A model generated the notes under the pieces. It did not search any database and was not told the origin of the DNA. It saw only the letters and a program-made list of their open reading frames with translations. A DNA stretch of 64,000 nucleotides. It comes from Nereocystis luetkeana (lineage: Eukaryota > Sar > Phaeophyceae > Laminariales > Laminariaceae). The stretch is taken from assembly GCA_031213475.1 (NCBI GenBank), contig JARUPZ010000035.1, positions 4,764,953-4,828,952 on the forward strand, in the 5' to 3' direction. This document shows positions 23,501-53,500 of this stretch, one piece after another. The translations under genes and the position numbers were made by a program. The stretch's first letter is position 1. Every line of letters begins with the position of its first letter.

Positions 23501-26500
23501 ACCTGCTGGCCATAATTTCTCATTGCAGTGACGTTGTCGATTTTTCCTCTCCCAAGGATAGCGTTGTCTCTGTGAACACGCGGGGGCAGAGCTGCTGACT
23601 GCTCATGCCTATGGCCTACAATAGTTGGGGGGGCACATTCAACTCAGGGCCAACATCGCTGAAGCGTCCGAGCGACGAGGTCACTCCTACGACACACTTG
23701 AGAGACGCGAACCACCAAAATAAAATAGAGCATGGCAATGGGAAGACCAAAAAAGAGAGAGTGGCTGCTGCCTCGCGATGTTCCCTGCAGCAAGCAAATC
23801 AGTACGTTATGTACCCGCCGCGATATCCATATCTACATAGGAAATCCGGGGGTGTATCCATGAGGTCCCCTGACGACCACAGTCCGCGTTGGTGGTCTAC
23901 TGCATGAGCGGTGTTCGAGCGTGTGAATCTCTACCGTCACTGTAATTTTTACCTGAGGGAAATAGAAGCCTGATATCCAGAATACGGCTGGAGTGCCCTT
24001 CTCGATCCAGGCCCGAATGGTGTCTATTCGATACACTAAGTCCACCACCCAGGCAGACAGCGGTTTCATCGACGGGTAAGCCTGTCAACCATGACGCGAC
24101 ATACGTGAAGCATAACAGACGACTTTTAAAGGTAATACAGGATGCGTCTCACACAACATGTCAGACCGTACAGCACGCTGCTGCACGTATCTGTGAGGGA
24201 TTGAGCACGATGAAGGCAGCATGGTTATGTCTCTGTATATTCGATGTATGGATACGAGTACAGTAGGAGGGTGCTGCAAACATAAATATTCTAGCGGCGA
24301 GACGGTTTTATGAGAAGCTCCTATCTACGACACAGACACACGCAGATGGTACTAGTGCATGGTTGACACGTTTGTGGAAGGCTGCCAGACAATCATCATC
24401 ACACCGTCTCCTGCTATAAAAAACAAACAATGTAGGTTCGTAATTTATTTCACCCGCCTATCATGGGGGGGGGGGGCGGGGTGATTTTGTTCAAATGCCG
24501 TTCCCTCAGAAAAAAAAATATACTGAACTCACACTAGCTTATAAGTTATTTCCATCCACCCACCCACATACATTTAGGGTAAGGGGGGGGGGTAAAATAA
24601 AGAATGAACTATCTCTTCCTCTTCGCTGTCCTTGGTGCACTGTCTACTTTCCTTGCTGCATCCCAATGAAGTATCTCTGTGCTGTGACCGCAGAGCTTGT
24701 ATTTCTTTAACACAGGATGGAGGATCGGCACGGACTCTGGGGGAGTTGGGTGTCGACGGATAGAAACATCGGTTTGATGTGAAGGGACGCGACACACACG
24801 GCAAACATTGTCGCCGCTACGTCGCCCACCTTGGCTTCCCAGTCCTCAGGCACAGCGTTCAGTGCGATCGCTTTACCCACGGCCTCCAGCTCCCCCGACA
24901 TGACCACCAGCCCCTTCAACGCCTTCTGCAGCTCGGGCAGGGATCGCTCCATCACGTCGATCAGCTTGTTATATCGGATGCACTCCTGCACTAGCACCTG
25001 AAATTGTCGGCGAGGGCGGGGGCGAAAGAATGTTGTAACATCGGCGTCGTAGGTTAATTCGTACCTGGTATATAGTTTAGGATCAATGAGGCCTCCTGCT
25101 GCGACCAGCCGGAGACTCTCACCCAGGGTCACTACGCCCGCGTTAATTGTCTGGCAGTCAAGGCGGCGGGACCTCGTCGCAGAGAGTAGGTACCCCGGAA
25201 AAAGAAACACTATGAATAACAAGACTGATGTCGTTGTCGACGGTACGCCTCGCTACCAACGACGGGCGGGCGGGACGGTCTGTTTTTTCCTAGCCTCTTT
25301 CTACTTTGTCGTGCTTTTGTAGAGCTGCGATATCGCTCACGGAGAGATGCTCAATCACCGTCTGCCCGTACAACAACGAGGCTTTCCCGAAAAGGGATCC
25401 ACCCTGCGGGTGTCCCCTCTTTTTCTGTTCCAGATTACTGTTGTAACATCGCGTCGTACGTTAATTCGTACCTGGAATCTAGTTTGGGATCTGCTGCGGC
25501 ATGAGATCACACCCATGTTTGTTGGCCCTTCTCTTATTTCAATGTCGTCGCTCGTGTGATGCGTATCGTTGTTGCAGGTTCCTTCTATTCATTGCTGTCC
25601 CCAAACTTGTAGCCGAGTTGATTGGGGGCTCTGCTATCGTTGGTTGTCACGTGGGAACGTCGTGTACGATTTCCCATACCCCTCCGACGGTGATAAGGCG
25701 CTGAGGTATGCGATTGCGGTGTGAGGCACCTGGAACGCGTTTACCTGGTAGTCGGCACGCGGTGTTGTGGCATGTCTCCATGCGGTTCTTCCGGAACTAA
25801 CATACGCTCGTGTCGTGCTAGAGGGGTGACTATTGGTATCATATGTACCACTTCCAAGAAGAGCTGAATGTCTTTGGGAGAAGAACTTGAGTTTCGCTGG
25901 AGCTTTCGTCGGCATGCTACATGTACGACGAATCGGGCAACCTAATGTCGCTGAAAAAAACAAATTTCTCGTCTCCGTCGGTTCTGTAAAAAAATAGAGC
26001 TTGAAAAACAGATAAGGGGTATATCTCGACAAGTCCGCGCCATGAATGAATGCCTGGCACATGTTATCGGAGGCACAGATTGAATATTGTGACACGGGTC
26101 GAACAGAGCGCTGATAAGAAAGTCACTTTTGTTCCTTTGACCGAAGTGTTGATATAATTGCTGGCAACTTGTTGGTAGACATGTGAAGCGCTTCTATAAC
26201 GCTCTGCAACATGGAAACCACCTTCGCGGTGTGCGCGGTGTCAATCCCTACAGTCTCTAGAAAATTGAACCGTACGGCTCACCACTGACATGTGGTATGA
26301 CAAGACGACGCCAAACCATATATATGTCCCGTACCGTGTTCATGCTCCGTATATATGTACCGGACCGTGTTCATGCTCCGTATATGTGTACCGTACCGTG
26401 TTCATGCTCCGTATATATGTACCGTACCGTGTTCATTCTCCGTATATATGTACCGTACCGTGTTCATGCTCCGTCTATATGTACCGTACCGCGTTCATGC

Positions 26501-29500
26501 TCCGTATATATGTCCCGTACCGTGTTCATGCTCCGTATATGTGTCCCGTACCGTGTTTATGCTCCGTATATATGTACCGTACCGTGTTCATGCTCCGTCT
26601 ATATGTACCGTACCGTGTTCATGCTCCGTATATATGTACCGTACCGTGTTCATTCTCCGTATATATGTACCGTACCGTGTTCATGCTCCGTATATATGTA
26701 CCGTACCGTGTTCATTCTCCGTATATATGTACCGTACCGTGTTCATGCTCCGTATATATGTACCGTACCGCGTTCATGCTCCGTCTATATGTACCGTACC
26801 GTGTTCATGCTCCGTATATGTGTACCGTACCGTGTTCATGCTCCGTATATATGTACCGTACCGTGTTCATGCTCCGTCTATATGTACCGTACCGTGTTCA
26901 TGCTCCGCATATATGTACCGTACCGTGTTCATGCTCCGTCTTTATGTACCGTACCGTGTCCATGCTCCGTATATATGTACCGTACCGTGTTCATGCTCCA
27001 TCTATATGTACCGTACCGTGTTCATGCTCCGTCTATATGTACCGTACCGTGTTTATGCTCCGTATATATGTACCGTACCGTGTTCATGCTCCGTATATGT
27101 GTCCCGTACCGTGTTTATGCTCCGTATATATGTACCGTACCGTGTTCATGCTCCGTATATATGTACCGTACCGTGTTCATGCTCCGTATATATGTACCGT
27201 ACCGTGTTCATGCTCCGTCTATATGTACCGTACCGTGTTCATGCTCCGCATATATGTACCGTACCGTGTTCATGCTCCGTCTTTATGTACCGTACCGTGT
27301 CCATGCTCCGTATATATGTACCGTACCGTGTTCATTCTCCGTCTATATGTACCGTACCGTGTTCATGCTCCGTCTATATGTACCGTACCGCGTTCATGCT
27401 CCGTATATGTGTACCGTACCGTGTTCATGCTCCGTATATGTGTCCCGTACCGTGTTTATGCTCCGTATATATGTACCGTACCGTGTTCATGCTCCGTATA
27501 TATGTACCGTACCGTGTTCATGCTCCGTATATATGTACCGTACCGTGTTCATGCTCCGTCTATATGTACCGTACCGTGTTCATGCTCCGTATATATGTAC
27601 CGTACCGTGTTCATGCTTTCCTCGTAGACGACGGGGTACTGCATCGTGATGGCCTCGATGTCGAACTGGCCGCCCCTCTCCTTCAGCTGATCTTCGATAG
27701 ACTTAGCCTCTGCGCCAAGCGCTGCCTCCCCCCCCGCCCCCCCGCCTCCACCACCGCCACTCTGAAGGCACGCGGCAACAAAAAAAAGACAGCAGAAAGG
27801 TATTTGGTGTCGTGGCGGAGTGCGGTGCGTCTACGCCTACTAAGCTCCTAGCCTGAGCAACTACAGCGCCCAATATCGCTGGAGTACAATCTGTGTGTTT
27901 TCGCTGTTTCGCGAATGCGCTTTCGGTCTTCTCATCAGAAGCAGGTTTTGGGCGACTCACGATAACATTATTACAGAGCGAATTGAGGGGCCTCGGGAAA
28001 ATCACAGGGAGAGGCGCATCTATCGATGGATGCATTTTCCTACCGTATCGTCTCGAGCTGTATTTATTTAGGGATACGCACCGTCATCGTCTGCAGGGTT
28101 TCCATTTGTTCAGGAGGCTGCCATCGGGTGTTCTCAAGGGGGCACCTCTTTTTGTCGAGGAGGATTAGCGTTTTCGAATGTGCGTACATGGGATAGTAGT
28201 GGCGGTTTTTCTGACAGTGCCCTATAGATCTCATTGTTTTGACTTCCGCACTCTCCGTAGAATAATAGAACACAAAGCCGTTTTCGAATGTTAGGACAGT
28301 TTCAGAGGATAAAGTTTCTACAATAGCTGGCCGTTCAGCCCAGTGGCCCATTTCGTTTTGATGAGCGTCATTCTTCGTCCAGGCAGCCGACGGACTAAAT
28401 AGTCGCTACACACCTGACGACCGGTAGACCGGTGTTGTTGCCACGATATCGTCATAACATGGCTCGAATCTAACGACACTCAACGACAACATAATATACT
28501 GCCAGGCTTCTGATGGGGGCCGTGGGCACCGTTCCCAGTTCCGGCTAAAAGTTGTTTTCGTCTAGTTCGCATATCGTCATCCTCGGATGCGGAACTTACT
28601 TCTCTTGTATTGTTGTTACGATTATTGCGTTCGTCATTGAGCTTCAACGATGATCACTCATGAACATTAGCATTCCCCGAAAGAAGAAAACGGAGGGAAA
28701 CAAGGAAAAAAAACAAAGCCTATTGATCTAGAGTAGACTAATGGACAACAATAGCCTATTGAACTACAGTAGCTTCAACGTTGAGGGTTCATGAACATCC
28801 CCCGAAAGAAGAGAACCGAGGCCAACAACGAAAAACAGATGCCAACCCATTGTACTACGTACAGAAGTTTATTGGACAACTGAAGCTTCGACGTTGATCG
28901 CTCACAAACTCTCCCCGGAAGAAGAAAACCAGGGGAACCCAATGTCTTCAATTCGTTTAACTAAACCAACTGCAACTTACACAAAGTGCTTGAAGCATAT
29001 ACCAGGTATATCCGTGGCACCGTCGGCAGGGCAGGACACTCACCTCCATGAGAAGGACGGTGTCAAATATCACGAACGTTTCCGCCAAAGCACAGGCGAT
29101 GTTGGCGTTTTCGTGGAGTCCAAACACGCCAGGCCCCGCCGTCATTGGCATGGTCTCGATGTTTTCCATGTAGCTGCGGTGCGGGTCTTCCGGGTTGTAA
29201 TTAATGCTGGGGTAGATGCCGTCTTCGTCGAAGGAGTAGTCCGTGTCGAGTACCTGGAGACGTAAGGTACGCATGATCATAAACGGCCTGCGGGTGTTAC
29301 CTCGCTGCGCCTGTCCTCGCAGGTGGTACTCGTAGTCTAAACGCTTTGGTTCTGCAGCAGGACTGCCGTTTCATACCCGCCCGCGTGCTATAAGGCTTAC
29401 CGTTGGCTGGTTAATTGATCGAGCTCTGTCACCCCGGTAGCACATGGCGGGCACAGCCTTTTGACAAAATCATAAAAAACAAACACTTAAGTCGACGAGT

Positions 29501-35500: not shown

Positions 35501-38500
35501 GAATTGTTCTCCTGTAGGTAAGACATCTGCTTGTAACAGACAAACGGAAGTAGACGCACCGAAATCCGGGGATACTACTCACCCAAGTCCCCTTCTGGGT
35601 GGCCTCCTCGATCAATCGCGTAGCTTTCAGACCCTGCCCCTGGCCCAGACTCAGGCCTTTGACCTTTTTGTCGAATCGTTTCTGAGCAGCGAACTGGTAG
35701 AAAGCTTTCGTAGGGTCTGCGGGGAAAGCGGGCGGGTGCGCAATAATCCATCGGAAAGCTTGAAAAGTATGCTGACGGCTGCAACAAAGCTCTGATGACG
35801 CCCAAAACAAGCACCACGGTCGACCGGCCACAAGGCCGCCAGTGGCCTGACGCCCGTAAAACGATAGCAGCATAGTTCGAAGCATAAGGGCTACAAACAT
35901 ACCAGGTATGAAAATATGTATTTTTGTGTTTTGTTTTTGGGCGACGATATTTCTGTTCGCAAGGCAATTTTGGATAAGGGAAACCCGGGGACGCAAGAAA
36001 GGCATGCCCGAAGTGACAGAGAGACTGCTGGAACACGGAGGAAGCAAGCCAACGGCAATTGCATCGTCGGTGATCTGCAGCAGCCCGAGAAAGTAGGTAC
36101 CCGACAGGGAAAAGTACGTGCTGCAGTATTTTGAAGGGCGGGCGGCGGGCGGCGGGGGTGCGGGGTTGTACTCAGTACCGTGCATGGCCACAGTCATATG
36201 ACCATAGACCCTGGCACCCCTACAATGCCGGGACGGAACACATCGGGTTTTCACCGACCAGACAGACATTGCTTGAACACTATGCGCGAAGCGCCGTGAG
36301 GTGTTCGGCAACTCGCATGAAGGGTGGGGGAGGGGTGTACTCGATCTCATGCATGGCCGTAGTCGTATGACCGTAGACTCTCGCATCCCTTCAATGCCGG
36401 GACGGAGCACGTCGGGTTTTCACCGACCAGGAAGACATTGTTTGCACACCAAGCGCGAAGCGCCGTGAAGTGTTCGGCGAGTCGCATGAAGGGTGGCCTA
36501 CATCATACTGTGAACCGCTAGTGAGGCGGACTTGCATATGGACGACAGCTTCAATGACTTCATTCAATTTCCGGTGTGGCCACTTCCAGAGACAGCAATG
36601 GGGGTACTATGTAACTGCCTCATGGGTGCCTTACCATAAACACTACGTGATGCGATCATGTGCAGACTAAAGGTTTTTCATCCCGTACAAATGATCTTTA
36701 TAGCTCGATCGCTAGCTGTGACTGACCGCCATGAAAATTAATAACGGTACCCTGGTTGTCTAGCTAGCTCACGCATTAAGCGGCATTTTTTACAGTGTTG
36801 TCGCCAACCGACGATAACCCAACCTAAATAGTAGGGGGGGAGGGGGGGGGGAAGCATTTTTATTTGTTTGTTTGTTTGTTTGTTCGTTCGTTTTTTCGGA
36901 GGCGATTTGTTTTTACGCATACCAGGGTACTAAATACTAAATTCAAGGTATTGACATACGATACATCACTCTGCAATACATCACTCTGCACCCCCCCCCC
37001 TACCGCTCACCAGACCCCTTAGAAAGTACGAAGATGAGCGGGGTGAGGACCGTCGAGTCGTCGAAGCACGATTCCAGGTCGAACGGCGGAGGTTCCACGA
37101 ACTCCTTCCCGAAGCTGTTCATGACGTAGCTGAGGATGGCGTCCGGCATCTTGTCGGCGCGAACACACCGCAGCAGGCAGAGTCGCTGCATGGCGTTCAT
37201 CTTTTCTTCCCACTCACCCGGGAAGGGAAGTGTCTGGGGCTCCATGTGGTCGTACATGTTCTGTCCACACAAAGGCGAGGGAGGCAAGGATGAGGAACAA
37301 GCGAGTACATACGTGCGCACATACATACGGGAAGCAGGCGTTCATAGCGAAACGTTGTTGAGTCGTCAAGCTTTCACACCTCAGGCAGATCATCAACTCC
37401 TACAGTCCATGGTCTGGAGACCCCCAGAAGGCAGATATATTCCTGATCCGTACGATCTGTATGGTCTGTATGATCTGTATGATCTAGCTCCTGTGATAGG
37501 GTGGGAGCCGTATAGGCTTCATAACCTAGAACATGTTTCCCGGGTTGGATCTGTACTGTACAGATCCTGCGCAACATATCATAACGGCAGGATATGATGC
37601 GATCATGATGATCTATCTGTAGATGATCTATCTGTAGATGGTCTGTCTGTGGATGGTGTATGTGTAGATCATCTATCTGTCCGACGTGCGCTAGGTTTTT
37701 CTTCGATACTTGTCCTAACCGTATACCGTAGCACAAACACGAACTGGGTTCCGTTTACTTCTCAAAGCTTTTTTTCATGTATGGCGCGTACGAATAACGG
37801 AGTGAAGGGCAGCCAGATGCATACACAGTCAAGAGAGGAGCTTCCGACACATCTGTTGGCCGTGGGAGGCCGAACTGAATGCCCGCACGTGAGACCATTA
37901 TTATCGACGCTGGAAAATCGATGGGTACGGTTCATTAATCGTTCTCACTTACTGCTGCGGTAATGGTCTTTGCTTCATTATTATTCTTGCAATATTTGAG
38001 TCCTTCCATCCGACGATGGGCAGCATGAGCTTCAACGCCGATCCCTCAAAAACGTCCAATTTCCCAGTAACAATGTTAAGAAGACCAAGGGATTGTCGCA
38101 GATGTACCGCCGCTTCGGTGTAATGCTTGGTTTTTGACGTCTTTGAGACCATAAAAAAAACATGCGTGTGGAGCAGAGTAGCGCGTCGATAGCATTACCT
38201 TAAAGTCTTGCAGAAGAGGGCCAGCAAAGCTACCCGCGAGGCCCTGGAAAGCCGACAACCCCGCCACCGCCTGAATTTCGCTCCACATACGAGCATCAAC
38301 CCATTCGGGCGCCGGGTTTTCGCCGGCCTGCACTGGCGTGTACGTCTTGCCCGAAATAAGGAAAGACCATTCGTTGTCGTCGATCAGCTTATCCCCCTAG
38401 GTCATGGCGAGGGCGAAATGTGAGCGCGCGGGGGAAGGGGGGCGGGCGGTTAAGCTCGCGGGTTCGAAGTTTGAAGCCATTTTTTTTTTCTCGTTTATAA

Positions 38501-44500: not shown

Positions 44501-47500
44501 ATGCCTTACTCACAGCCCAAAGGTGTGATGCTTTTTCTTCGCACACGACAAGGAAATCAAAACTTGCCTGCACGGGGTCGGCCAGAGTGAGGCGCACGTC
44601 ACAGCCCTCACTGTGCGGGATGTCGAGCTCCACAAGCTTCTGCTGCCAGCCTCTGACGAGCTTCTGTCGGAAGTCTGGCGTGAAGGGACCCGAGTACGCG
44701 ATCATGCCGGCCGAGACAAGGACGTCGCCGACAAGGTTGTCGTAGTCCTTCGTCAGCTGCGCCACACTCACCTAGATAAATAGTTTTTCCGGTTTTCCAA
44801 GGCAAACCGAATGTGACAGGATGCAGTCATGTTCGGAGGTGGATGCTCATCTATTGACAGCAGAAGGCAGGAGATTAACCGATGACAGCAAGGTGAACTT
44901 GCAGTGTCCAGTCGACAGGGGTGTGGGGGGGGGTGTTTGAGTACACTGAGGGGGTATCTAAAACCCTAACCCTAACTCTAACTGACGCGCGCTGCGATAA
45001 GGGGTACACCTAGGGGTGCACCCTGGGAGTACACGTAGGGGGGTGCACGTAGGGTACACCTTGGGGTACACCTAGGGGGTACACCTAGGGGTACATTTAG
45101 GGTATACTATCTAGGGGGGGTACACCTAGGGGGTACAACTATGTACACCTTGGGGGTACACCTTGCAGTAAACCTAGTAGACCTAACCCTAGCCCTAACT
45201 CTAACCGACGCGTGCTATGATAGGGGTACACCTAGGGGGTACACTTAGGGGGTACAGCTAGGGGGTACAGCTAGGGGATACAGCTAGGGGATACAGCTAG
45301 GGGGTACAGCTGGGGGATACACCTAGGGGGTACATCTAGGGGGTACATCCAGGGGGTACATCTAGGGGTACACCTAGGGGGTACACCTAGGGGGTACACC
45401 CAGGGGGTGCACCTAGGGGTGCACCTAGGGGTGCACCTAGGGGTGCGCCTAGGGGGTACACCTAGGGGGTAAACCTAGGGGTTACATCTTGGGGTACACT
45501 TAGGGGGTACACCAAAACTAGTAAGTCACCCAAAGCATAAACATCGACCGAAAATGAAAGCGCAAGCCGTCGATCAACAGTCTCATGGCCGAGATATGTG
45601 TCTACGTAATACTACTATAGCAAAACGCGTTTGGTACGTCAATGATTTTGGGTGGTAGCTCCTCAGTTGCAATGGTTGAGGAGTCCGCCAGGCATAAATA
45701 CTGCCCTGCAAGGCAAGATGTGCTACCGTATTTTATATCCCTATCTATCGTAGGGAGGCGACTCACGGTCCACCGATCCTTTTCTCCTCCGAGCCCCCCG
45801 ATAAGCTTCTGCGCGCGGTCCAGTCTGGCCCTGCACTCTTCAACGTCGTTCATCAGTTTTTCCTGCCACGAAAGCAACGCGGGGGAGATATAAAGTATTT
45901 GGGGGGGTGGTATGGCTGAAATTCAGTCATTGAATGCCTTGGAATTAGTGTTACACTTCAAAGTATGGATATTTGTTTACGAGATTCTATTAATTTTTAG
46001 TGTATCGGGTATTTGTCTTGGCCCTGATTGTTGACCGCGAATCTTGACCCCGACTATCGCGATTCTTGCGATTGTAGACCCCCCCCACACACACGACTAC
46101 GGCCATGCATGGCTTGAGTACACCCCCTCCCCACCAATCACACTCCCACGCACTCCCTCCACCCCTTTCCCCTCCAGCCCCTCCGACCTACCACACCCTA
46201 CCAGTAACTGACTTCATATCAGGTCACTGTGTTCAGCGGTACTGGTACTAAACAGTGCGTCCCAGATCTGATATCAGCGTCTGATGGCGCCAGTCCATTT
46301 CTTCACCGTTCCAATAGCAATACCAATGCATCTGCCTTCTGTACGACTGTAGAAAATACCACACGATACTGTTGGTTTCCCAGCAATGGAGTACATGCCG
46401 CAAATGCTTACAGTTACATACGTGGCTACACTAAGTACTTGCGGTGTGCTCGCGCCCTCGAAATATAAACGCTCTGGGCAATTATTGAGAATGGACTCCT
46501 TTCGCGAGCAATTTTTATGATCGTTGGGAACCATACTGGATTGCGACTATACGCGGCGTGTCTATAGCTAGCCTGAGGCAGCCCGGAGCCCTGCCATGGT
46601 GCCGCGTTTATCCCTGGGTTCCTATTAATAACGTTTTAAGCATGTCGCCGAAGTGGTACGAGTAGTGACACCATGAAAAAACAACGCCAACCTGAGAACG
46701 TATGGATCAGGCAAAAATATTAACTACGATACCATACGTATTCAGGATGTAATGTCGAACTCGTACGCTAAATCAAAACTGTGCTGTCGCCCTCTCTCGC
46801 TGTTTGGATATAGATGAGAGCGTTGTCCCCCGCTTGCGCTGATTGACGATAAATGCGAGTCATCGCACATTTTTTGTGTTGAGCATGTACCTGGAGCGGT
46901 AACCGCCACCGAGCACGTAGCTTATGTATTAATCTCGTAAAAATAAACAAAACGATACAATCCTCCATGAAATCAGCACCAAGCTCGAAACTTATTATGC
47001 ATCTCGTAAGAGACACCAGCATGATAAAACTCCTTAACCTTGTCCGTTATACCTTTTTGGTGTTGGCCTCGTCGAACTGAGCCTCGAGCGTCGCCACCTT
47101 GTCAAGAGTCTCTTTCAACGTCTCCTGTGCCTGGGCCAGCTCAGCCATGGTCACGTCTAGTTCTATCTGCAAAGTTTGACGTTTTGTTTCGGCGTGTATG
47201 AGCGCGGATTCCAGCCATGATTACGTCCAGTTCTATCTGAAAAGGTTTGATGTTTGTTTAGGTGTGTATGCCCCGCGGATTGCTCGTAGGGGTTCCAGTC
47301 ACATCCCTCCCAGCAACGTTGGTGCACTCGAAGCGACTGTATATTACGCACGACACCTCCCTCGGACCAACTATTGTACACATGTTTCGTTTCGGCCACA
47401 ATCCTGTAAACTCTCGCGGGGTGTATGCGTCGTATATGTCGTATGCTGCATTCTCTAGATACTATGTACCCTGCTTCGACGGGCGTACGCCCAACCGTGG

Positions 47501-50500
47501 ATGGTGTTGGCAACTCCGATGCAAACGCCGTATTTTTGTTTTACGCGGTAGGCCGAGAACATAGTCATCATTTGATGTTCACCATAAAAGTATGAAACGG
47601 GGATTCTATGCAATGGCATGTGTCGTGTGCCATTATCTAGATGCTGCGTGAGAGTCGCCATCATCTTTGGTGGCCATCATCTTCGGTCGCAATCGTTTCT
47701 AGTCGCCATCGTTTTCGATCTCAGTAACTTGTGGTGTCTATACACCATAGGCCACCCACCTGCTTTTCCGCCAGGAGTTTTCTCTTGGGCTCCACTTGTT
47801 TCGCCACCGTGTTGTACTTGTGCATTGCGCGCACCCACAAGCAGATCGCGGTGCAAGCCTTGGAAGCTTTCTCGATTTGCTTCGCCTCGAAGTCAGGATT
47901 GACCACAAACGGATCGATGGCCTGTTCTCACGTTCCGCGTATAGGAAAACGGTACAACCATTTGATGGTTGCAAAGGCAAGGGACGCAGCAGCGAAACGT
48001 TAGCTCTTTTGTGCCCAGCTAACGGGGTTCGCACATGTCATGCATGGCCGTAGTCGTATGATCGTAGAACCTTGCCCTCAAGCCCAGCTAAGGTGTAGGA
48101 GTGAAAAGTTGAAAGTGATCGACATCGTGGAGCTAACCGGCCACACCAGCGAGTAGACCCGGTTACCTCCAATCGTATGCTCCCATAGGGTAGGGATGAC
48201 GATGCAAGCGAGCGTGTAGCGGAGTGTCAGAAACACTGCCGTTCGGGAGCGTTGTCGTTCGTTTCGTCACCGCGCGTGCTCTGAACCGCGACAAGCTACG
48301 TACGACGGCAGTGCGGGAAGCGCGCATCCGACGAGCAAATACAAAGCACCGCGCCCTGCCTTGGGCGTATCCAAGTTACCGAACCACTTCAAAACAGGTC
48401 CTACCTCCGCAGTTTTGGGTATCGTGCCAGTTCGAGTGGATCTTACCGGGTACATGCAGGTTCGGGATCCGTGATTGTATCGCTAGCATGTTTGCCGACA
48501 CAGAAAATGTGAGTGTTCGCTGTTATACGAGTACTCAGCCGCGGTTCCTTCGCGGGTAGCAGGCCGCAGATTAAATTATCACTGAGATTACTCCGTTCGG
48601 GGTACTCCAGTAGTCTAAGCCGTGGTTTATATTCTCACCGCAATAACTTTGTCGGGGATGTTATCTTTGTCAAACTCCTGCATGTCCAGCAGCATCTTGT
48701 TGGCGTTGGAGAGGAGGGTTTTCTTCGCCGCGCCGAACCAGTCGTTCACCTGCAGACCCAGTCCGCGAGGGCAAAACGCGCGTAACTTCTATCAGCATCT
48801 TGATGGTTCGAAGGGAGGTAGGCAGGAAATTCTTCATTATGACGATACTAAGAAGGCAGGCGGCCCTTCAGTATGTCGAGGTTTCGAAAGCTGGGCGTTC
48901 TTCAATATGATGATGTTCAGAAAACAGGCAGTCCCTCAGTATGTCAAGGTTTTGAAAGCAGGCCGTTGCTGAATATACTGGTGCCTAAACGCACGTAGCT
49001 TCTATCAGCATCTTGATGGTTCGAAGGGAGGCAGGCAGGAAATTCTTCAATATGATGATGCTAAGAGACAGGCGGTCCTTCAGTATGTCGAGGTTTCGAA
49101 AGCAGGGAGTTCTTCAATATGATGATGTTCAGAAAACAGGCAATCCCTCAGTATGTCAAGGTTATGAAAACAGGCCGTTCTTGAATATATTTGTGCCTAG
49201 AAGTAGAGCAGATGTTTTAAGTGTGTCGAGGTTTCGCAAGCCGGCGGTTTCGAGGCGACCCCAGCAGCTTGGGGACGTATCGTGTACCCTACCTAACCCA
49301 GGCTCCAGAGTGTTTCCGTGACTCTGATCCGTCCTTGTTGCTCTTTATGGCGTACACTGCTGCATCGAGGACTGTCCTCCAGCCAACATGTGAAAAGACG
49401 AATGTATCCTCTGAACAATACTGTTAGCCATTGGCGCCAGCCAAACGATTTTCGTTTTCGACATACAGACTCCACGGCCGCTAAAAAGCTAACAATCAAC
49501 GACTGCTGTATATTTCAAGAAAATCGTCAAGTACGTGCCGTGGTCTCCAACAGGCCATGCTGCAGTCCTTTCAAACAACTCGTCTTGTGGGGGAGGTATA
49601 TTGGTGGTGATGTTGATCGAGTCAGTGGAGTCGCACACAAGCCGCCGAAAGCAGACTGAGCACCTTGTAGTCCCAAGGAAAAAAGAAGGAGGGACATCAT
49701 CCATTTCTGCTTTTCTTCCGTTGTGCGGGTCGATCAGTTGGTGATGAATCAGATCAATCTATACTCCTATAACAAGCGCTTTACTGCTGCCGTCACTCCG
49801 AACAAAGCTATTTATCCATTACCTTCCCGACCAAATTAATTGCTAAGCAAGAAAAAAAAACACGCATCATGTTGTTTGCCATCCCACAATATACAACATG
49901 ACCTTCATGAAGAAGAAGGAACCCCATCAAGGGAAACAAAACAACTTTATTCTACGAGTATGTGTCTCGGGTCTGGAGGGTACGTGCCCAGACCTCGAAA
50001 GCCCCTCCGTGTCATGGCGTTCGCATTAAGCTCTGTATAATACATGCATGACATGCTGCTGCACGGCATATTTACCAGCAAATATCCAATCAACCATTCG
50101 AACAACCCCACCTTTTTCCCTGGGTTGTCAGGATCGTTTATTTTCTCGGGCTTGATGCCAAACATGATGCACGTCGCTTCCATGGTAAGTTTCACCCCGT
50201 ACGGAGGCTTCCCGAGGCTCTTAACCTGTTGAACACATTGCACACGTCGGGCCGGCGGATGTGGCTCTGATCTGTACGAGAACGGTCTAGCTCATGTCGC
50301 CTGGTGGGGATCGTATAACCTGCATGCTGTTTCCTGGGTTATAGGTATGTTCTAAGTAGGTCCTGCACAGCATCACATGATGGCAGACAGAGGATCTAGA
50401 GATATACGTATTTAGAATCATAGGTGACCTAGATCATGCTCTGTCCAACATGTGATAACGTGCAATGCAACGAGCGTCAGCTGTTGTTGTACTAGAGATG

Positions 50501-53500
50501 GAACACCTTGGGGCGAGGTATCGCAGCAGCCATCGTGGTGCCATACTAAACAGTGGTTCTCGATCTTGCCCCTTTTCCCACCGCCCAACGTATCCTGCAC
50601 TAATTCGAGTAGTTTGTCCCCAGTGTGGTTGGTGCAGTTCTCAAAAGGTCAAACACAAACCATGTGCACGTGACATGCTGCCGGTCGATGATGGCTAGTC
50701 GGTTTGCCCGTGTGTGGCGTTTTATGGGCACTTCAAAAATTAACGGCTGCGGCTACGGTTATTTCGGTGACGATTGTTTCGGGTATTACGGTGAAGGATA
50801 CGGTCACAGTTGCGGTTACGGTTATTGCGGTTACATATACGGTTACAGTTGCGGTTACGACTACGGTTACGGTTACGGTTACGGTTATTACCGTTACGGA
50901 AAATACCACAAAAAATGTCAGTTACGGCTACGGCTACGTCTAGCATCCGGCCACTGCTTGGTTGGGCCAAAATACAAAATAGTGCCCGAATGATAAACAA
51001 TGAAAAAAGCCGTGTTATGCGACACTCGGACTATTGTTGACACGACCAAACATGAGCGTACGCGATGTTACTCTGTTTGCCACTATAATTTGATCAAGAC
51101 AGTTAAACGGTAAGGTTAAGTTTGCAACTTTTTAGGGAAAGCATCGGGTTTCGCCTTCGCTCTACTGCCAATAACAGGCTCTGCCCGTAGTTTTCTATCA
51201 GCACAGTTCGGGTGGCCCTCGCATAATTCGCTTGCAGGTTGCTGTGCTCCCATCCTTCTGCCAGTTTTTCACGGCTAAAAAGCTTCCACACGAGCAAAAC
51301 CTTGCCTCATCTATGTCGGACTTTTTGAGGTCCTTCAAGCATGCGACCGCCACATCCAGAGCAGGCAAGGCTTCGTCAAGATCCCTCTGGGCATCGTCGG
51401 CGATAGCCTTCGTTGCTGCGGCCTTTCCCTTAGCCACAGCCTCCTGGCTCTCAACCTGTCGCGGCATCAAGCATAGCATTCAACCGTAGCATGTCAAAAT
51501 CAGGCAGCAAAATACAGTTGCACACACACCCATCAACTGAACCATGCCAACATTGCGATTCGACACGGCATGACGAGGGGGAAAAGGCTGAAGTGTTTGT
51601 CGCGATAGAAGTGCAAGGCACAAACTGTAGTGAGGAGGGGGGGGGAGAAAACGCCTGCTGTGTGTGCGACTCCGGATCTGAGTTACACTAGGAGAGAGAG
51701 AAGGAAGGGCGGAGATAACAGGTGGGATGAAAAACAAAATCAAAAGCATCAGGCAGAAAAATACAGTTTTTCAAAAGCTATAGCCGTAGTATGCCAACAT
51801 CAGGAAACAAAATTACAGTTTCACACAGCCAATAATCACATAGTTCATCAACAGCAGGCGGCGGTAAAACACAGTTCAACACAAGCCGTCAACCGATGCA
51901 CTTCAACGGCAGGCAGCAACGCAGCTGCAGGCAACGACTTCCCAGCGGGACCACAGGCCGGCGCAGGAGGCCTCATCCAATCCAATACTTACATTAAATG
52001 ATCAACGGCATAGAGCCAGAATACTAAAGGAAATAGCGGTGCCACCTTTGCCCTACTTTTCTTTCGGCTCCCTCCCTGTCGTAACTAGTATGGCCAATTA
52101 ATTTTGGCAGGCACTGCTCTCCCCTCCCCCCTGCGGTGTGGTGCGTGCCATCGTATTTATCGCGGGAAGACTTCGGGATTTTTTTTCCCTCGCCGACTCG
52201 TATCGAACGGGGCATTCGATGCATTCACATGCTTCGTGGGTGCTCTCTGTGTCAATAGGTGCACAAGAAAAGGTTCGTCGGGGGGGCAGCTCTCGAAATC
52301 GATCTCACAGGTAGTAGTTGCGAGGTGTTCACCTCTGCACCATCGGGGAAGCTGGCGTGTAGCGGCTTGATACGGGACTTAATACGCATTTTGATTCGCA
52401 AGCCGTTCCCGAGGACGACCTCCGTGACATATCACGATCTAGATCACCTACACCGCATAGATAAATGATATATCTGCCGTTGTGATGTGTCGTGCAGGAC
52501 ATATTTATTTAGCAGATCTATCTTAGGAAACTTGTGCTAGATCATGCCGGTCATACGGTTTCCATCCCGGCAACACAATCTATACATGATACAGATCATA
52601 CACAGATCATACAGGTCAGGAATAGATATATCAGCCCCGAAATATCTAGATCATTCATCGGAGATCTGCTCAAGGTTTTTTGTGCGTACTCGCCTCCCGT
52701 TGCGTCTTCCCGGCCTCCTCCTTGTCGCTCATGATGGTGACGATCATCACTTCTACCTCGGCTTGAGTCTTGATCAGCACCGGCTCCATAGCCGTCAGTT
52801 GCTCCTGCAGCCCCCCCACTTGCTCCTGGGTCGACACTATCTTGTCTAAGCCCGCCTGTAGAGTGGAGGTTTCCACGAAAATGCTGTCAGGTGTGAATAA
52901 TCGGATTTCCATTGTAGAAGCTCTCAACATGCTCACGCCAGCCCACTACAGCACTACTATTGGTATCTCAGTGCAATAAACAAGTACCCTTAGCTCTACA
53001 AGATTGAAAGGTCAACATAGAAAAACTCATCGAAATAACTTGCCACCCTGCTACCGAGTGTCGAGAAACGCCCGCCCTCGCCCCCGAGTCGGAAGCTTTT
53101 TTTGTTTCTCTCATCCAATAAGGTGCGTGTGGTAAGGCAGTGCCTCGAGTTTGATGGTGGTGACAACATAGACAATAAGCAATCGGAAAGTAGGTCGCAC
53201 TAACATAATACATACCAGGCAATCCGTATCAGATAGGTCAGATATATCAGATAGATCAGATAGATCAGATATATCAGATATATCAGATATATCAGATAGA
53301 TATCCATTTCATGCAGGATCTATTTAGGTCAGGGCCATGTATTCGTACTCGTGGGTTCGAATCCCACGGTGGTCACCAATGTAAAGCCGATGCTCGCAGT
53401 GAGAGCCGATGATGTCGCGGAGAAGTCGCCGTGGAGAGGTCGCGAAGCGAGGGTCCCTCGTAGCCGTCCTTACGGCCGACGTAAGCCGAGCAGAGTTCTT

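Follow-up and report, generated by a model that had tools for sequence, protein, structure and literature searches.

How one 5' splice site is chosen when the signal at the end of an exon appears to have been copied about 42 times into the intron that follows is a natural puzzle for the splicing machinery. It is raised by a locus of Nereocystis luetkeana (Phaeophyceae, Laminariales), which lies in a stretch of 64,000 nucleotides of contig JARUPZ010000035.1 (GenBank assembly GCA_031213475.1, positions 4,764,953 to 4,828,952 of the forward strand), here called the window. The element in question is a minisatellite of 31-bp units that starts at the end of an exon of a dynein heavy chain gene. Coordinates are positions within the window, and both gene and array are on the minus strand. 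A preliminary description of this DNA had presented the array as a ladder of competing donors, an interpretation that, as a whole, is partly supported. It is probable that the minisatellite was seeded at the dynein exon end and grew to 42 units, that the exon-proximal donor is the one used, and that the array is tolerated, probably without any function. The features on which the argument turns are these:

27606..27761, minus strand: dynein exon of 156 nt, placed by its dynein match and ending ...YEESMNT, with its final 12 nt (27617..27606) shared with unit 1 as the exonic portion
26316..27617, minus strand: minisatellite, 42 x 31 bp, every unit repeating the junction, from Tandem Repeats Finder (TRF) and the unit count
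24998..27605, minus strand: array-bearing intron of the gene model, 2608 nt, half of it array
24830..24997, minus strand: next dynein exon, 168 nt, with the acceptor TTTCAG|GTG, placed by its dynein match
27600..27608, minus strand: exon-proximal donor ACG|GTACGG, with the intron starting at 27605; by translation, the only first-GT donor that gives ESMNT-VLVQE
27567..27569, minus strand: start of the second-GT donor of unit 2, ACG|GTACAT, 36 nt past 27605, which adds 36 nt (12 codons) in frame
27184..27586, minus strand: units 2-14, similar to units 13-25 (27245..26843) when displaced by 11 units; by eye, 9 of the 13 unit pairs are identical
25739..25747, minus strand: intronic decoy CAG|GTAAAC, which has the top donor-like score in the array-bearing intron, above that of the true donor, by a matrix made from the gene's own donors

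Counted in register from the exon, the array is a gapless run of 42 units from 27617 down to 26316; TRF reports it at 26319-27617 with a period of 31, 41.9 copies, 94% matches and 0% indels. The preliminary description had placed about 42 copies at 26318..27618, spaced by 41 x 31 without net indel, and it was right on both counts, its coordinates to within 1-2 bases. It had also derived the unit from 12 nt of exon and 19 nt of intron, and the register from the exon bears this out, since unit 1 joins the exon end (AGC ATG AAC ACG) to the 19 nt with which the intron opens. No array unit carries more than three mismatches to unit 1, and none carries an indel. There are 14 unit types among the 42, the commonest (14/42) being the sequence of unit 1 itself. 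The repeat is continued neither before unit 1 nor after unit 42. The same repeat at other loci, which was held to speak against an origin at this junction, was looked for inside the window on both strands; all 14-mers of unit 1 proved to be confined to the array. Ungapped matches to the unit elsewhere in the window reach at most 20/31 on the minus and 19/31 on the plus strand, with 18-21 in 20 shuffles. Because matches outside only reach the shuffle level, the array is not a product of chance. The window has no tRNA and no Rfam matches. A 10-nt micro-exon in each unit (AG...GT) was considered and set aside because the unit, with a pyrimidine content of 39%, has no pyrimidine tract.

Judged from protein alignments, the host gene encodes an axonemal dynein heavy chain, with ESMNT|VLVQE as its correct junction. 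In a PDB search, the peptide joined at this point matches DHC2 best (entry 8glv, E 9.4e-24), and across the junction the three dynein alignments printed are gap-free, so that both the dynein identity and the ESMNT-VLVQE junction given earlier stand. In three-frame searches with stops read as X, dynein segments are collinear between about 62.7 kb and 24.8 kb. The coding order continues past the junction, with positions 24-122 of the Dynein_C profile in two joined exons, followed by 124-175 and 167-207 in two open reading frames further down, which supports the interpretation preferred here. DHC2, an inner-arm dynein of Chlamydomonas, is the top match in 8/10 PDB searches; because a DNAH7 and another 8glv chain each top one search, assignment to a DHC2/DNAH1-like subfamily is likely but not settled. 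Upstream, the gene extends beyond the window, and its first segment inside the window matches DHC2 from about residue 2411, so the label "exon 31" attached to the array-bearing exon is not a true exon number but at best a count within the window.

The gene model has 23 donors and 22 acceptors, placed by eye from the dynein alignments; it leaves out the introns of the stretch between i2 and i4 and the splice sites of the upstream exons and of those lower than 24.8 kb. The lengths of twenty exons range over 75-250 nt. The array-bearing intron is the longest of the 22 measured (118-2608 nt, middle values 938 and 995), and would come to about 1.3 kb minus the array. Among 17 TRF rows checked in the modelled gene, from which five rows overlapping checked arrays were omitted, only the 31-bp array overlaps a model exon.

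As sequence, the donor ladder is real: the first GT is intact in 42/42 units, and a second GT, 5 nt downstream, in 37/42. The statement that each unit restores ACG|GTACGG holds for the GT, but the exact motif is present in 38/42 only. What these donors would produce was followed by translating first-GT donors from exon to exon with n = 0-6, 11 and 41 extra units (9/42). The donor with n = 0 is the only open one. With n = 1 the frame is shifted and a stop is met in the next exon, while with n >= 2 a TGA falls inside the extension and is kept by all later donors by construction. None of the 41 later first-GT donors, therefore, gives the protein (8 were translated; the others hold the same TGA). 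The earlier account of these outcomes was correct in that the second donor shifts the frame, but the TGA is already met at the third donor, with two extra units. Similarly, its claim that only the exon-proximal donor gives the protein is sound for the first GTs but overlooked the second GTs. Of the three translated (n = 0, 1, 2), only that of unit 2 (n = 1), which adds 36 nucleotides, keeps the frame open to where the next exon ends. Skipping of the 156-nt exon would also stay in frame.

Donor strength was scored with a matrix built from the 22 other donors of the gene, which is small, mixes GT with GC and is no test of splicing. The exon donor and its 37 identical copies score 2.16; the variant units score 1.28 (GCG|GTACGG, three units) and -0.72 (ACG|GTCCGG, one unit), and the second GTs, where intact, range from 0.34 to 0.90. 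Two sites in the array-bearing intron score higher: CAG|GTAAAC at 25744 with 8.76 and GTG|GTGAGC with 6.34, the latter at 26282, a little beyond the array. With the exon end taken from the protein, selection of the true donor would, by this own-gene score, not be due to its strength. Masking of donors by RNA structure is not supported for the transcript strand, as 199/200 and 17/20 shuffles fold at least as well.

The array may have begun with a tandem duplication of 31 bp spanning the exon-intron junction of the axonemal dynein heavy chain gene, and its expansion to 42 units would have proceeded partly via duplication of an 11-unit block. Recurrence of such blocks, already described, is confirmed: unit identity at lag 11 is 0.9615, with 10/31 pairs exact, and among 5000 shuffles of unit order this identity was matched by none at lag 11 and by 15 at some lag of 1-21. 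The 12 exon-derived nucleotides encode SMNT, which recurs in each of the three dynein alignments printed, so the unit probably derives from the exon; the coding constraint on SMNT suggests that copying went from the exon junction to the array. In the exon-derived part of units 2-42, four columns vary and every one of them changes a residue. This is expected if unit 1 alone is coding, with the caveat that four columns are few. Variable columns number 2/9 in the donor and 9/22 elsewhere in the unit (counted); the donor columns are too few, and constraint on them is therefore neither claimed nor excluded. Viral contigs were scanned with a 43-base stretch of the array (no matches) and with a dynein peptide (10 pattern matches, none confirmed by tblastn), results of little weight given that a nuclear gene is rarely expected there.

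Why such growth would leave the gene intact may be understood from the position of the copies. Since all of them lie downstream of the original donor, they would remain intronic while the exon-proximal donor is used; the array would thus be tolerated and free to grow as intronic sequence. The exon-proximal donor would be expected to win where an exon is recognised as a unit and the donor nearest the acceptor is preferred, a mode known as exon definition. Short exons between long introns place the dynein gene in the exon-definition class, from which it may be inferred that this mode operates in the organism studied and that donor 1 is used. PMC9225289 describes five minigenes with two identical strong donors in which, under exon definition, the upstream donor was used exclusively, and a preference for the upstream donor in human events that combine near-equal donors with long flanking introns.

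Several points weigh against this view. According to the same source, about 60% of human events prefer the downstream donor when no strength filter is applied, exon-definition classes included, and when both donors were weakened, larger exon constructs mostly skipped the exon and the upstream preference was kept only in the S and M constructs (PMC9225289). The dynein donor is weak by the own-gene score: in a leave-one-out comparison, 20/22 other donors outscore it, with middle values of 7.63 and 7.73. A weak donor leaves room for exon skipping, which would here be in frame. The upstream-donor rule is borrowed from human genes and may apply only by analogy, and use of donor 1 is deduced from sequence. 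Finally, the count of 42 units is that of a single assembled sequence. The anatomy and block structure of the array, the identity and architecture of the gene and the reading-frame outcomes are shown by the analysis itself.

The preliminary description knew of no equivalent, which was wrong, since a human minisatellite precedes it. Turri et al. are said to have reported in 1995 that the minisatellite of human IFI6/6-16 supplies multiple splice donors. The IFI6 array begins near an exon end and has 12-bp units in 26 copies, with later donors in frame. Both arrays are minisatellites with repeated donor-like sequences, and the dynein array fits the IFI6 type in two features: it starts at an exon end and extends into the intron, and each unit has a donor-like sequence. 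It differs in having 31-bp units, 42 copies and no later first-GT donor that gives the protein. The dynein array is genuine, and its kind is known from an earlier example. Human introns reportedly arose from tandem arrays, with splice boundaries multiplied within repeats (so Zhuo et al. in 2007); those were new introns with matching ends, whereas in dynein an existing intron was lengthened. In IFI6 (6-16, G1P3), two downstream repeat units act as donors and three mRNA species result (PMC4526556). The polyubiquitin gene UBC is similar in that each unit of its tandem repeats brings one splice site; its tandem dual-specific splice sites yield a ladder of products in reverse transcription polymerase chain reaction (PMC10809524). 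In UBC, however, the array is coding sequence in which AGGT, recurring in frame every 228 nt, acts as donor or acceptor, whereas the 31-bp dynein unit contains no AGGT, is 39% pyrimidine and does not belong to the UBC type. Minisatellites (average unit 30 bp, 4 repeats) can also lengthen exons or introns and activate cryptic splice sites, according to PMC2812944; those cases come from transcripts of human segmental duplications, while the dynein array has 42 copies, belongs to another organism and is genomic sequence. Among the titles listed from the open-licence literature on such repeats, a dynein donor array was not found, although no search combined dynein or algae with repeats, and absence from print is not claimed.

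The boldest part of the finding would be that the ladder is actually used, which must be considered unlikely. Transcripts would then draw on many of up to 79 competing GT donors (42 first, 37 second), most of the mRNA would be unproductive through frameshift or TGA, array length would tune the yield of dynein, and the second GT of unit 2 could occasionally give an in-frame isoform with an insertion of 12 residues. In favour of such use, all 42 first GTs and 37 second GTs are intact, and 37 copies equal the true donor, itself weak, in strength. IFI6 repeat units can serve as donors, and use of the later ones is reported; those of the dynein array, in contrast, are known from sequence alone. Moreover, minigenes with identical strong donors used the upstream one only (PMC9225289), and beyond the general likeness of units the donor columns, with 2/9 against 9/22 variable, carry no sign of constraint. 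Very unlikely, in turn, is an older intronic or dispersed satellite that met, or overwrote, the exon end, so that the repeat did not come from the junction. Uniqueness of the unit is established for the window only, and other tandem repeats do occur in introns of the dynein gene; however, the exonic 12 nt encode the conserved SMNT, 14-mers of unit 1 are absent elsewhere in the window, and the sharp edge of the array within the exon coincides with a codon boundary.

Assembly errors are frequent in long arrays of near-identical units, and copy number or block structure could partly be an artefact of this kind. Such an artefact is less probable still, in view of the patterned variants (14 unit types among 42) and the gapless spacing, and it could alter the number of units but not the junction unit itself. 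The chance that the array matters as an antisense protein-coding repeat is negligible. All three plus-strand frames are open across it, with 452, 462 and 516 aa from stop to stop (26261-27851), but 1160/20000 shuffled units are likewise stop-free in all frames, and the longest frame has no Pfam match; this candidate was set aside.

Choice among identical donors has been tested with two-site minigenes (PMC9225289). With 42 near-equal sites in a natural series, and the correct protein coming from the first alone, the cross-exon proximity rule could be tested well past two sites, and individuals differing in array length would form a dose series. The locus would also show that growth of a junction minisatellite to a large size need not destroy its gene if it occurs downstream of the donor in use.

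Other tandem repeats lie within the dynein gene at 45001-45513 (period 13), 48774-49199 (period 212) and 36181-36496 (period 169), those of periods 13 and 169 falling in model introns. Seven of the 23 inferred donors have GC instead of GT (e.g., CAG|GCAAGT and AAG|GCAAGC), with first intron bases at 52693, 51305, 44567, 44013, 42281, 40552 and 33500 on the minus strand. Such donors amount to about 1% in plants and animals, so that their share in this gene is high by comparison. For six of the seven, alternatives within 24 nt were enumerated; five have no open-frame GT donor, and the one at 51305 may have a GT alternative one residue shorter. In the array-bearing intron, the sequence CAGGTACGAATTAA(C)(C/G)TACGACG...GATGTTACAACA occurs twice on the minus strand, at about 25474-25437 and 25067-25030. 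The second copy of CAGGTACGAATTAA...GATGTTACAACA stands directly before the next exon, and the sequence is perhaps a dispersed repeat; both copies hold an identical donor-like CAG|GTACGA.
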